Assembly: GCA_016201275.1 (NCBI GenBank)
Contig: JACQDB010000075.1
Span: 1-48,154 of the forward strand
Source of the DNA: Acidobacteriota bacterium
GTDB lineage: Bacteria; Acidobacteriota; Blastocatellia; UBA7656
Length of the DNA: 48,154 nt
Reading direction: 5' to 3'
Positions 6,466 through 10,525 of the stretch are shown one piece after another. The notes beneath the pieces are model-generated. The model saw only the letters and a program-made list of their open reading frames with translations. It did no database searches and was not told where the DNA came from. The stretch's first letter is position 1. The number at the start of each line of letters is the position of its first letter. The translations under genes and the position numbers were made by a program.

Positions 6466-6803
6466 GTTTCGTAGTACCGCTTTATGTTCTTTAAATGAAT
6501 AATCTGCCAAGCCCACGAAAGTGGGCGCAAGCATAAAGCCCAGTGTGAAGCAAAGCGTAACGCTGGGTAGAGAGTCGCAACCGTTTATCGGAGCCCGCGA
6601 AGCGGGTGATAGAACTGGCGAGTGATGGTCTATCACCCGCTTCGCGGGCTCATGAAAAATGTCTTGCTTACCCACCCCGCGCTGACGCACGGGGCTGTAT
6701 GCTGTCGCCTGCTCCGCAGGCTTGTATGATTATTTCTTCAATAAACAATAAGCGGAAGATGTGAAATGCGAAACCCTGCCGCTTAAAAGCGGTACTACGA
6801 AAC
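6466..6803. mobile_element. 338-bp inverted-repeat element (MITE-like)
   Basis: The ends are perfect 18-base inverted repeats (6466-6483 and 6786-6803; GTTTCGTAGTACCGC plus three T). The centre is a perfect 23-bp inverted repeat (6591-6613 and 6629-6651) with a 15-base loop. Between ends and centre the two halves are also related as inverted copies. Each has a small GC hairpin (for example GCCCACGAAAGTGGGC at 6511-6526), then an AAGCCC...GGGT palindrome (6539-6567). No coding capacity is evident and no clear target-site duplication is seen (AAAAAG left, AATGAG right). It ends three to four bases before the ribosome site of the kinase gene. It is probably a non-autonomous or REP-derived dispersed repeat at the left edge of an accessory island. 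Confidence 0.75.
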
Positions 6804-6820: not shown

Positions 6821-8701
6821 ATGCTTCGTTCGGGAGACAAAATCGGGCTTTACACGTTAATTCGCAAACTCGGCAAAGGCGCGTTCGGCGAAGTCTGGCT
6901 AGTCGAAGAACACGACGCCATTTTGTCCTCGCAATTCGCGCTTAAAATTCTCTTTGATGAAGACGCCGACCTTGATGCAGTCAAACAGGAAGCCTCCGTC
7001 TGGTTGCAGGCCAGTGGCCATCCGAATGTGATGCCAATTCACAAAGCCAGTGTGTATGACGGGCAATTTGTGATCGTCAGCGAATACGCCCCCAACGGTT
7101 CGTTGAAAGATTGGTTGAAACAACACGGCAGCAAAGCCCCATCCATCAAAGAAGCGATACGTCTCACCGATGGCATCCTTGCCGGACTTGAGCATCTTCA
7201 TGCAAGGCGCATCATTCACCGCGACATCAAGCCGGACAATGTGTTGATGCAGGGCGCGACACCACGCCTTGCGGATTTCGGCATCTCACGAATTTTAAAA
7301 TCAACCGTGCATTCGCAAGCCCTGGCGGGGACGCCGCAATACATGGCTCCCGAAGCGTTCAGAGGTGAACGTGATGAACAGACCGATGTATGGGCAGTCG
7401 GCGTTTTGCTTTATCAAATGGTGGGCGGACGACTGCCGTTTTCTGAAACCGATTTGTACGGCTTGATGAATCAAGTAGCGAATACAAAACCGCTGCCACT
7501 TGGCGCGGATGTACCGGAGCCTTTGCAGAAGGTGATTGCGAAGGCGATGGAGAAAGAACAGGCGAGGCGCTATCGGTCAGCAAGCGAGATGCGCGAGGCC
7601 TTGCATGAAGTGCAACGGCAAATTGAAGAAGCGGAGCGAAAATGGCGATGGCTTGAAGAGCAAAAGCGGATTGAAGCGCAGCAACGACAGCAGCTTGAAG
7701 ATCAGAAAAAACAACCGGCTGTAGAGCGAGACACAGAGGCAACAATTATAAGAGAGCCGCAGCCAGTCAAAGTTGAAGTGCAAAAGTCTCTCAAGTTTGA
7801 CTCGCCGAAGCGGTCTTCAAGGATTCCAAAAGAAGTGCCGCCGCAACCGCTTGCGAAGCCGAAACGCTCGCCGGTGTTAATTGGCGGGGGGGTGTTCGTC
7901 GCACTGATTTTTTTGGTAGCGGCGATTGTGCTGGCGGTGAAGAGTTTCAAACCTGCAAATCCAACTGCACCAACAAACCTGATAGCAACAACTTCTACAT
8001 CGGAAATCATCAAGCAAATCGAAGCGCAGATGGTACAGATACCGGGCGGCACATTTATGATGGGATCGCCGAAAAATGAGCAGGGGCGTAATGACAAGGA
8101 ATGGCCGCAGCATCAAGTAACCGTGTCATCGTTTTACCTGGGTAAGTACGAAGTGACACAAGCGCAATGGCGAGAGGTAGCGAGTTTGCCGAAGGTGAAG
8201 ATTGATTTGAATGCGACCCCGTCGCGTTTCAACGGCGATAACTTGCCCGTGGAAACTGTGAGTTGGGATGAAGCGGTGGAGTTTTGTGAAAGATTGTCGA
8301 GAGTAACCAGAAAAATGTTTCGTTTGCCTACGGAAGCCGAATGGGAGTACGCGTGCAGAGCCGGGACGAGGGGAAGGTATGCGGGGAACTTGGATAAAAT
8401 GACATGGTACGACAACAACTCCGATAACACGACGCATCAGGTCGGAGAGAAGCAAGCGAATGCTTGGGGCTTGTATGATATGCAGGGGAATGTGTCGGAG
8501 TGGTGTAGGGATGCGTATGGGGCTTACTCAAGTGAAGCGCAGAGGGATCCGACTGGCGCTAATTCAGGGGTGAACAGAATGAGACGTGGTGGCCGTTGGA
8601 ACCATAACGCACGGATTTGCCGGTCGGCATACCGTTCATGGATCACGCCCGACTATCGTGCCTTCTCCCTAGGCTTCCGCCTTGTGAGGACTTACCCTTG
8701 A
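6821..8701 (+). CDS. Membrane Ser/Thr protein kinase fused to a SUMF1/FGE-like domain (possible DGR target)
   Basis: The 626-residue protein has a PknB-type kinase domain at about 11-265. It shows a GKGAFGEV loop, Lys42 in FALKIL, HRDIKPDN (133-140), DFG (152-154) and GTPQYMAPE (170-178). A charged, coiled-coil-prone linker (265-345) leads to one membrane helix (about 352-374). An extracytoplasmic SUMF1/formylglycine-generating-enzyme-like domain (about 404-626) follows, with IPGGTFMMGS, LPTEAEWEYACRAG and GNVSEWC. Only one cysteine lies in the final GGRW...GFR region, so sulfatase-activating chemistry is unlikely; this C-type-lectin fold more often binds ligands. Its last 40 residues resemble a diversified region (see 8567-8690). 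GAGGAGG lies about 8 bases before the ATG. An outside-binding sensor coupled to an inside kinase is the natural reading. Confidence 0.93.
   Translation: MLRSGDKIGLYTLIRKLGKGAFGEVWLVEEHDAILSSQFALKILFDEDADLDAVKQEASVWLQASGHPNVMPIHKASVYDGQFVIVSEYAPNGSLKDWLKQHGSKAPSIKEAIRLTDGILAGLEHLHARRIIHRDIKPDNVLMQGATPRLADFGISRILKSTVHSQALAGTPQYMAPEAFRGERDEQTDVWAVGVLLYQMVGGRLPFSETDLYGLMNQVANTKPLPLGADVPEPLQKVIAKAMEKEQARRYRSASEMREALHEVQRQIEEAERKWRWLEEQKRIEAQQRQQLEDQKKQPAVERDTEATIIREPQPVKVEVQKSLKFDSPKRSSRIPKEVPPQPLAKPKRSPVLIGGGVFVALIFLVAAIVLAVKSFKPANPTAPTNLIATTSTSEIIKQIEAQMVQIPGGTFMMGSPKNEQGRNDKEWPQHQVTVSSFYLGKYEVTQAQWREVASLPKVKIDLNATPSRFNGDNLPVETVSWDEAVEFCERLSRVTRKMFRLPTEAEWEYACRAGTRGRYAGNLDKMTWYDNNSDNTTHQVGEKQANAWGLYDMQGNVSEWCRDAYGAYSSEAQRDPTGANSGVNRMRRGGRWNHNARICRSAYRSWITPDYRAFSLGFRLVRTYP
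8567..8690 (+). other. Candidate DGR variable region in the SUMF1 domain
   Basis: The segment encodes a C-terminal frame RRGGRW.....C RSAYR ... PDYR ... LGFRLV. The positions that are Asn-rich in DGR templates of this fold (GGSWNNN..NCRSA.RN.N.PD.RN.N.GFR) are here a mixture of Arg, His, Ile, Tyr, Ser, Trp, Ala and Phe. Constant codons (TGCCGGTCGGCA, ACGCCCGAC, CTAGGCTTCCGCCTTGT) alternate with the mixed ones. That is what adenine-directed mutagenic retrohoming leaves. No reverse transcriptase or template repeat is in the window, so the call rests on pattern alone; ordinary SUMF1 divergence is the alternative. Confidence 0.5.
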
Positions 8702-8719
8702 CGGTTTTAGCGCTCAAGA

Positions 8720-8737
8720 TGCAATCCTATGATTGCA
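8720..8737 (+). other. Hairpin just 3' of the candidate variable region
   Basis: TGCAATC CTAT GATTGCA is a perfect 7-bp stem with a 4-base loop, 18 bases after the stop codon of the kinase-SUMF1 gene. In DGRs such as that of Bordetella phage BPP-1, a short cruciform with a four-base loop lies just downstream of the variable repeat and is needed for efficient retrohoming. It is not followed by a T-run, so an intrinsic terminator is less likely. Confidence 0.5.
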
Positions 8738-8787
8738 CACAGGATGGTTTTGGACATGATTGACAGGAAGAACGGAGAAATAGATTT

Positions 8788-9204
8788 ATGCCAGCGCGTG
8801 ATAAATATCACCAGAGCGCCAAAAATGCGCTCATCAAAGACGGTTGGACAATTACCGATGATCCTTTGCGATTGCGCTTTGGCGGCAAAGATATGTATGT
8901 TGATTTAGCCGCAGAGCGGTTGCTGACGGCGGAAAAGGAAGGGCGGCAAATCGCCGTTGAAATCAAGAGCTTCATCGGTTTGTCGGAACTTGATGATGTC
9001 GAAAAAGCGCTGGGGCAATACTTCGTTTACAAAGCGGTGCTGGCACAGACCTAGCCTTTGAAGACTCTGTATCTGGCGGTTCCGAAAAAGGCTTTTGTGA
9101 ACATCTTTGAAGAACCGTTTGGACAGCTTATGCTTAAACAATACAACGTGCCTTTGTTAGTCTTTGATTGGCAAACTGAGGAGATCATCAAATGGATAGA
9201 CTAG
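8788..9204 (+). pseudogene. xisH: xisH, interrupted by an in-frame TAG
   Basis: The frame begins MPARDKYHQSAKNALIKDGW and continues DPLRLRFGGKDMYVDLAAE, EGRQIAVEIKSF and ALGQYFVYKAVL. This is the XisH family (fdxN-element excision controlling factor), with a PD-(D/E)XK-like fold (D in YVDL, E-x-K in VEIKS). After codon 88 there is a TAG at 9052-9054. The same frame then runs on without a shift through LKTLYLAVPKKAFVNIFEEP to KWID and a natural TAG at 9202-9204, giving the family's normal length of about 138 codons. The lesion is therefore a single nonsense codon. The end overlaps xisI by 13 bases, the usual xisHI arrangement. A sequencing error or readthrough cannot be excluded. Confidence 0.88.
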
Positions 9205-9530
9205 AACCATATCGCCAACTGATTCAAAAAATTATTGTCGCTCACACCGAAGTGCCTTACGCCGACGGTGAAATAACCTTCGAGACTTTCTTTGACCGCG
9301 AAGCCGACCGCTATTTGTTGATGCTGGTCGGTTGGGAAACCAGCGGCAAGCGCGTTCACGGCAGCCTCATCCACATAGACATTATTGATGGCAAGATTTG
9401 GATTCAACGCGATGGCACAGAGTATGGCGTTGCTAGAGAATTGCTTGATACGGGAGTGCCGAAAGACGCCATCGTGTTGGCATTTCATCCACCTGAAGTT
9501 CGACAAGATGCCGAGCTTACCGCAGCGTAA
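9192..9530 (+). CDS. xisI: XisI family protein
   Basis: The 112-residue protein is a full-length XisI. It has MDRLEPYRQLIQKIIVAHTE at the start, then FFDREADRYLLMLVGWE, HIDIIDGKIWIQRDGTE and the C-terminal GVPKDAIVLAFHPPEVR. XisI always travels with XisH; in Anabaena both affect excision of the fdxN element, though the pair is widespread without that element and its biochemical role is unknown. Its start codon lies inside the last codons of xisH, so translation is probably coupled; the nonsense codon in xisH may reduce expression. Confidence 0.9.
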   Translation: MDRLEPYRQLIQKIIVAHTEVPYADGEITFETFFDREADRYLLMLVGWETSGKRVHGSLIHIDIIDGKIWIQRDGTEYGVARELLDTGVPKDAIVLAFHPPEVRQDAELTAA

Positions 9531-9586: not shown

Positions 9587-10525
9587 ATGACCGTCAAGCC
9601 GTTTGACCAGGGATTCAAATATCTCGCTGAGGATGACGCGGAATCGCTGCTGCTGTTGCTTGGCGTGCTGAAACCCGGCGAGTGGGCGAGCATCGAAAAA
9701 CTGCCCACGGAACTGAGCGTTTCAACCATCATCGCCGATCAACTCTATCGCGTCACCACCGAACACGATGCGCCGTTCATCGTTCATGTGGAAGCGCAGA
9801 CTCGTTGGACGGATGAACTCTTTGAGCGCTTGCCCAATTATGGCGCAAGGGCTTGGATGAAGCACAAACTGCCGGTGCATTGTTACGTGCTGGTCTTGCT
9901 CAAGAAAGGTATGCCGCGCCAGTTGCCGCGCTATGCGACGGTGAAAGCGGGTGGCGTGGAAATCAAAGCCCGACTCAACATCGTCAAGTTGTGGGAGTAT
10001 CCGGCGACGCGAGTCATACAGATGCAGCGCGAGAATTTGTTGCCCTTTGTGCCGTTGATGAAAGGCGGCGAGCGCGAGTTGCAACGCGGAGCCGAACGCT
10101 TGCGCGAAGTGAAAGACGAGCAGAAGCGCCGCGATTTGGGCGCGCATTTTGTCGCTTTCGGTGGACTGCGCTATAATCGGGAAAAAGTGATTGAGTTGAT
10201 ATTGGAGAAAAGTATGATCCCCATCGAACAATTGAAAGAGTCGAGTTTCTATCAAATGGTTCTCGAAGAAGGCGAGAAGAAAGGCGAGAAGAAAGGCGAG
10301 AAGAAAGGCAGAGAAAAAGGCCGGAGAGAAAGCGAAATCGAAACCGCTGCCGAGATATTGCTGGGACTTGTCGAGAAGCATTTTCCTCAGTCGAATCTTG
10401 CGCCGGACATCAAACGCATCAAAGACCCGAAAACGCTGCGGCAATTGTGTCTTGAAGTTTTCGACATGAAAAGCGCCAAAGCTTTGCAAAAACGCATCGC
10501 TGAACTTTCACTTCCCAAGAAATGA
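9587..10525 (+). CDS. Rpn/PD-(D/E)XK nuclease family transposase-like protein
   Basis: The 312-residue protein has the N-terminal Rpn/YhgA-like nuclease domain: FDQGFKYLAEDDAESLLLLL, then IADQLYRV and IVHVEAQTRW, the strand with the catalytic E-x-Q. A charged C-terminal part contains a near-perfect GEKK repeat (about residues 229-243), then a helical tail. Rpn proteins promote RecA-independent recombination and DNA cleavage in E. coli, and many are linked to defence or mobile DNA. At DNA level the GEKK stretch is a 12-base tandem repeat (10271-10310), which is prone to copy-number change. The stop overlaps the start of the M16 partner gene (ATGA). Confidence 0.85.
   Translation: MTVKPFDQGFKYLAEDDAESLLLLLGVLKPGEWASIEKLPTELSVSTIIADQLYRVTTEHDAPFIVHVEAQTRWTDELFERLPNYGARAWMKHKLPVHCYVLVLLKKGMPRQLPRYATVKAGGVEIKARLNIVKLWEYPATRVIQMQRENLLPFVPLMKGGERELQRGAERLREVKDEQKRRDLGAHFVAFGGLRYNREKVIELILEKSMIPIEQLKESSFYQMVLEEGEKKGEKKGEKKGREKGRRESEIETAAEILLGLVEKHFPQSNLAPDIKRIKDPKTLRQLCLEVFDMKSAKALQKRIAELSLPKK

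Follow-up and report, generated by a model that had tools for sequence, protein, structure and literature searches.

The protein encoded at 6821–8701 of the window (the whole stretch of 48,154 nucleotides that was analysed) is probably a receptor-like membrane kinase descended from a DGR target, and the loss of reverse transcriptase and template from its genome has probably left its binding face fixed. We hypothesize that a cytoplasmic Ser/Thr kinase is joined through one membrane span to an outer FGE/C-lectin domain, and that this outer domain binds a ligand and thereby tunes the kinase. The binding face is of the type rewritten by DGRs, and the gene would most likely have come from a DGR target, either as a former remote target or as a copy of one. 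Its own genome would later have lost both the enzyme and the template, leaving a face that evolves by ordinary mutation.

Domain make-up and homology of the kinase gene

6821–8701, + strand: protein of 626 aa with a Ser/Thr kinase, a single hydrophobic span and an FGE/C-lectin domain, from Pfam matches, the hydrophobic stretch and kinase motifs
8024–8689, + strand: FGE-sulfatase domain with the C-type-lectin fold; by sequence, its nearest relative of solved structure is Treponema denticola TvpA (2y3c)
8584–8695, + strand: DGR-variable-region-like 3' end of the gene (RGG...GFRLVRT), from the match to a DGR template repeat of the same class

Pfam places a Pkinase match at residues 11–252 (E 4.3e-47) and an FGE-sulfatase match at residues 402–623 (E 6.9e-52), with one hydrophobic span between them near residues 352–376, where the top 19-residue stretch starts at residue 352 and has a mean of 2.93. 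The preliminary description had read the gene as a kinase-SUMF1 fusion with a single membrane span, and these matches bear that out. The HRD, DFG and APE motifs of the kinase domain are all kept, and the kinase is therefore likely to be active. By Pfam the protein has the kinase-CLec arrangement, a Ser/Thr kinase with a C-terminal CLec domain, and a variable-region-like end is present where this C-lectin/FGE domain reaches the 3' end of the ORF. The C-terminus reads RGGRWNHNARICRSAYRSWITPDYRAFSLGFRLV, and the SUMF1/C-lectin skeleton described earlier for the last 40 residues (GGxW, CRSA, PDxR, GFRLV) is located there in full. SUMF1, the formylglycine-generating enzyme, has two active-site cysteines near its C-terminus, C336 and C341 in man. 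The FGE stretch that matches this active site has one Cys (600), and the SUMF1 alignment has a 3-residue gap there. A single-sequence AlphaFold model of the FGE domain had a mean pLDDT of 34.4 and was set aside.

When the FGE domain is compared by sequence with the PDB, the DGR variable protein TvpA comes first (2y3c, E 8.1e-33; SUMF1 scores 1.3e-22), and the alignment with TvpA runs gap-free through the variable end of the domain. At the DNA level, positions 8560–8740 were searched against 162 genomes of the class, with at most five candidates scored per genome. Among the matches listed, five of the 162 genomes were hit, its own included, and the best match outside its own genome was a DGR template repeat (L035, genome G152; E 6.7e-9), to which positions 8585–8705 are 70% identical. 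This template repeat lies directly behind a reverse transcriptase carrying the motif GLPIGNLTSQHFAN. The variable region of the same DGR (L040) is 2.5 kb from the template and, read by eye, differs from it almost only at template adenines, plus one base missing. An Asn-rich template of the L035 type was readable beside each of nine DGR reverse transcriptases (L035, L045–L052). An ungapped automatic scan for template and variable-region pairs over 12 loci returned pairs in L047 and L048 only; it missed the L035/L040 pair because template and variable region are split over two loci, and that pair was read by eye. A protein search of the contig collection gave nine loci with every match confined to residues 2–287, the kinase part, and was not used.

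With TvpA as the best solved relative and a DGR template as the best class-wide DNA match among the matches listed, the assignment of the domain to the FGE/C-lectin type of DGR targets is supported, and the homology to DGR targets is real. The earlier observation that nearly every Asn position of known templates carries another residue here also holds against L035: seven of the nine AAY (Asn) codons of this template are altered and two still encode Asn.

Searches for a reverse transcriptase and a template

No reverse transcriptase or template was detected in the assembly, which has 6,840,417 bases in 162 contigs and is 98.71% complete, although an assembly in 162 contigs could lack a 2-kb cassette. 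An RVT_1 profile search of the genome gave 0 matches. This profile scores nine of nine DGR reverse transcriptases, tried as proteins, above its cut-off, and as a genome search it did detect an N-truncated enzyme in a relative (G005), so it should have detected one here. With the L035 reverse transcriptase as a query, 10 of the 162 class genomes gave 14 matches below E 1e-40 (counting the query), whereas the window genome and its relative G006 had none at E 1e-10 or better. The weaker matches seen in other genomes are taken to be other reverse transcriptases; those read within the family carry QG...SP-type motifs. Phage and plasmid collections gave no match.

For the template, three DNA queries were run against its own genome: the window region, the template of L035 and the region of L036 from G006. 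All first-look candidates were scored (8, 33 and 12, respectively), and no template repeat was found. Besides the gene itself, the queries matched a 70-base tail on contig C78 (L015), 22 bases on C2 (L016, E 0.36) and 23 bases on C22 that fall inside an FGE gene (L005). The tail on C78 is not a template but the end of a broken FGE gene of 97 codons with the terminus PDSRNLNLGFRLVRTYN. Its start resembles the caspase-type gene in L042 (Peptidase_C14), although L015 itself has no Pfam match; from sequence, it looks like an FGE tail fused to a caspase-like start by an internal deletion. Located at positions 1263–1556 of L015, it provides a second FGE tail besides that of the window gene, and a 6-bp hairpin and xisHI come after it.

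The preliminary description had noted that neither component lies within the window, which agrees with these genome-wide searches covering its contig. It had also inferred active diversification from a distance and proposed looking through the genome for a DGR reverse transcriptase and for a template repeat nearly identical to the variable region. Both searches came back empty in this assembly; with no RVT_1 match, no DGR reverse transcriptase match and no template repeat, active diversification of the gene is not supported. The cyanobacterial yardstick of a variable region at least 50% identical to a DGR-borne target of the same genome finds no such target here, because no DGR was found in the genome.

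Among relatives in the family, G006, from a sister genus and 98% complete, holds several target-type genes, and no DGR reverse transcriptase was detected in it. A candidate template on its contig C148 (L124, 1000–1620) is in fact a decayed FGE gene of the target type, interrupted by stop codons and with a shortened variable end, RGGGWFDVAPRYRSAYRDWRTTGLRIVRTL. Two other G006 loci, L118 and L120, have similar FGE domains with a common variable-end frame and 3' flank behind different fronts, a kinase in one and TPR repeats in the other; the FGE module seems to have been shuffled between front domains. In G005, from another sister genus, an FGE gene is followed directly by the N-truncated DGR reverse transcriptase, which is without its first ~130 residues and matches residues 133–360 of the 363-residue query. 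No intact DGR enzyme was found in the seven genomes of the family, and the window genome itself has 13 FGE matches. The simplest account of the data from G006, G005 and the window genome is that the family lost its DGR and kept orphan targets, which are now fixed.

Tests for a footprint of rewriting and competing explanations

The genomes searched include a single member of the genus, the window genome itself. Compared with the L035 template, which comes from another genome (G152), the window gene has 14 of 26 template adenines changed and 18 of 82 other bases (p 2.7e-3). The other bases split into 3 of 46 changed at codon positions 1–2 and 15 of 36 at third positions, and against third positions alone the adenines do not stand out (14/26 vs 15/36, p 0.24). 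An ordinary FGE paralogue of the same genome, L011, passes the same test (20/26 adenines vs 33/82 others, p 1.0e-3); the p values for the paralogues L008, L005 and L012 are 0.074, 0.34 and 0.50. Since L011 scores as well as the window gene, the test is not specific and mostly sees residues that are free to vary. The result for L011 and the comparison with third positions count against past diversification of the window gene, which these alignments leave not proven. The endings of the template-Asn codons lean towards a DGR past: a final C or T is found in 8/9 in the window gene, 9/9 in L008, 8/9 in L005, 5/9 in L011 and 3/9 in L012.

We also compared differences by codon position between the variable part and the rest of the domain in 44 of 55 pairs of genes, leaving out 11 as too diverged by the cut-off; p values are uncorrected. 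The clearest pair is L036 and L043 of G006, with 11, 8 and 1 differences at positions 1, 2 and 3 in the variable part (26 codons) and 27, 25 and 75 in the rest (195 codons; p 2.9e-6). The remaining pairs among L036, L041, L042 and L043, all from G006, point in the same direction (p 9e-4 to 0.021), and the signal weakens when a pair includes L039b, also of G006, or L037, from a different genome (p 0.0059 to 0.54). Cross-genome pairs, for which no recent common template is possible, also lean this way, if more weakly: L008 with the G006 genes gave p 0.0071 to 0.05, and L005 showed an excess at positions 1–2 with L042 (p 0.0053) and L041 (p 0.0068). Part of the excess is therefore ordinary amino-acid change, and because these pairs lean the same way, the signal rises clearly above them in no pairs but the strongest of G006. 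In those pairs, copying from one template is the best account of the pattern.

No clear footprint of this kind extends to the window gene. Against L008, the kinase-FGE paralogue given the closest comparison, differences at positions 1, 2 and 3 number 12, 10 and 15 in the 26 variable codons and 55, 45 and 103 in the 182 others (p 0.17). Third positions differ at 15 of 26 codons in the variable part and at 103 of 182 in the rest and are thus not shared, and there is no sign of recent shared templating of the two genes. The nine other partners of the window gene showed no clear footprint either (p 0.029 to 0.54).

A hairpin behind the gene had also been put forward as a DGR feature:

8720–8737, + strand: perfect 7-bp stem with a 4-nt loop (TGCAATC-CTAT-GATTGCA), 18 bases past the stop codon (8699–8701)

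Its form and its distance from the stop codon are as first described. The window was divided on both strands into 2404 overlapping stretches of 80 nt: 25 of these, this hairpin counted, contain a perfect stem of 7 bp or more closed by a 4-nt loop, and 123, about 5%, do so with loops of 3–8 nt. Because such stems occur in the background of the window, the hairpin alone is weak evidence. The same 7-bp/4-nt form stands at nearly the same offset behind one FGE gene of G006 (L039), and among six genes adjoining a DGR one (L046) has a perfect stem of at least 7 bp behind it. A family-wide hairpin rule was rejected, with perfect stems of at least 7 bp at 3 of 17 gene ends (window, L039b, L046), not clearly above the ~5% background. 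Separately, a pyrimidine-rich CCCTTTTACCCTTTTAC-like stretch was seen by eye after the stop codon in L036, L043, L037, L031, L040, L046, L049 and L050; this is possibly a homing signal 3' of target stop codons.

These results can be read in other ways. The gene could encode an ordinary kinase with an FGE/C-lectin domain and no history as a DGR target; DGRs elsewhere would exploit the same fold, and surface loops would vary as they do in any paralogue family. We think this unlikely, even though the A-site test is as unspecific as L011 shows it to be, the genome has 13 FGE matches yet no detectable DGR, and the distance from L008 at third positions is as large in the variable part as in the gene body. 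Against it stand three observations: outside its own genome, the 3' end has its best match, among the matches listed, in a DGR template; eight of the nine template-Asn codons still end in C or T where L011 and L012 keep fewer; and kin in G006 carry a DGR-like footprint.

At the other extreme, the gene could be an active remote target whose enzyme and template are missing from the assembly, sit on an element not present in every cell, or act only at times. A genome 98.7% complete with 0 RVT_1 matches, no template in that genome, no match in phage and plasmid collections and no shared templating with L008 all make this improbable. In its favour, trans-acting remote targets have been described, the G006 footprint exists without a detectable enzyme, the hairpin at 8720–8737 has the DGR form, and, in excerpts of PMC10907252, diversified targets with no matching template in the assembly are attributed to cells with an intact DGR, which long reads show as structural variants. 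Also on the available excerpts of that paper, the organism Thiohalocapsa PB-PSB1 has a DGR locus for which long reads uncovered structural variants whose parts are intact. A version in which the kinase is still diversified in trans, with the window genome and G006 sharing DGR-type targets whose reverse transcriptase and template are carried by an element that the assembled cells do not have or that some of them have lost, is in our judgement very doubtful; if true, the clade would keep a pool of kinase receptors that is rewritten only while the element is present. Descent from a DGR target, followed by loss of the DGR, is the reading we prefer.

Known systems and gene neighbourhood

Kinase-CLec variable proteins with dispersed remote paralogues are known from cyanobacterial DGRs (PMC7517822, from the portions available). 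The window gene shares with them a Ser/Thr kinase in front, a C-terminal CLec/FGE-type domain, a 3' variable region and dispersed paralogues. It differs in that the cyanobacterial genomes, in the same portions, hold a DGR whose template the remote targets match, whereas none was found in the window genome, which belongs to another class. Kinase-lectin DGR targets, remote ones among them, are thus already published for cyanobacteria, and the window gene is a further member, most likely an inactive one. TvpA, which belongs to a DGR according to excerpts of PMC7159879, resembles the window FGE domain more closely by sequence than any other solved protein, without gaps through the variable end, but its solved chain has no kinase, and it has a DGR where none was found in the window genome. 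DGRs of the same class (L035/L040, L045–L052) share the Asn-rich RGGSWNN...GFR-like template type and have FGE targets where the locus reached them; they differ in having their own reverse transcriptase and template, neither of which was found in the window genome. FGE-type lectin sensors are also part of the FGS/CLec conflict systems that are linked to DGRs in multicellular bacteria (PMC7159879 and PMC10907252, both in excerpt). These resemble the window protein in a C-terminal FGE-type lectin domain, a presumed sensor, behind other domains, but their partners in those excerpts are vWA-MoxR, whereas the next genes in the window are M16 peptidases and xisHI. Two further papers mention DGRs and acidobacteria (PMC10686091, PMC10504277); in the parts available, the DGRs described are from Gammaproteobacteria and viruses and not from the group of the window genome.

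If the preferred descent from a DGR target is correct, it suggests that a DGR-target scaffold can outlive its mutator, as targets persist in a family in whose seven genomes no intact enzyme was found and in which one sister genus (G006) retains the footprint of past rewriting. Such sets of orphan targets could show how fast variable faces become fixed once diversification ends. They also call for caution, as not every FGE-type C-terminus is an active variable region.

The immediate surroundings of the gene comprise the following:

6466–6803, no strand assigned: MITE-like element immediately upstream of the kinase gene, bounded by perfect terminal inverted repeats of 18 bp and containing a further inverted repeat of 23 bp
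8788–9189, + strand: xisH-like gene with an in-frame TAG at 9052–9054, a neighbour and probably not part of the system
9192–9530, + strand: xisI-like gene, a neighbour

The xisH-like frame stays open past the TAG, so it is either a recent pseudogene or a sequencing error. As a component of the system, xisHI was rejected: among the matches listed, the FGE-tail motif stands at most 420 bases upstream in 2 of 35 xisH loci (one locus, L108, has only 181 bases upstream), both in the window genome, so we treat xisHI as a chance or local neighbour. The 10 of 162 genomes with a strong DGR reverse transcriptase match and the 20 of 162 with xisH share five, more than expected by chance (p 0.003). Family f9 supplies 6 of those 10 and 7 of those 20, and because many of both sets sit in this family we draw nothing from the overlap. 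Between 5053 and 12042, two M16 peptidase genes flank the kinase-FGE gene, xisHI and an ORF with no Pfam match (9587–10525), as if the kinase-FGE/xisHI block had been inserted between M16 peptidase neighbours.
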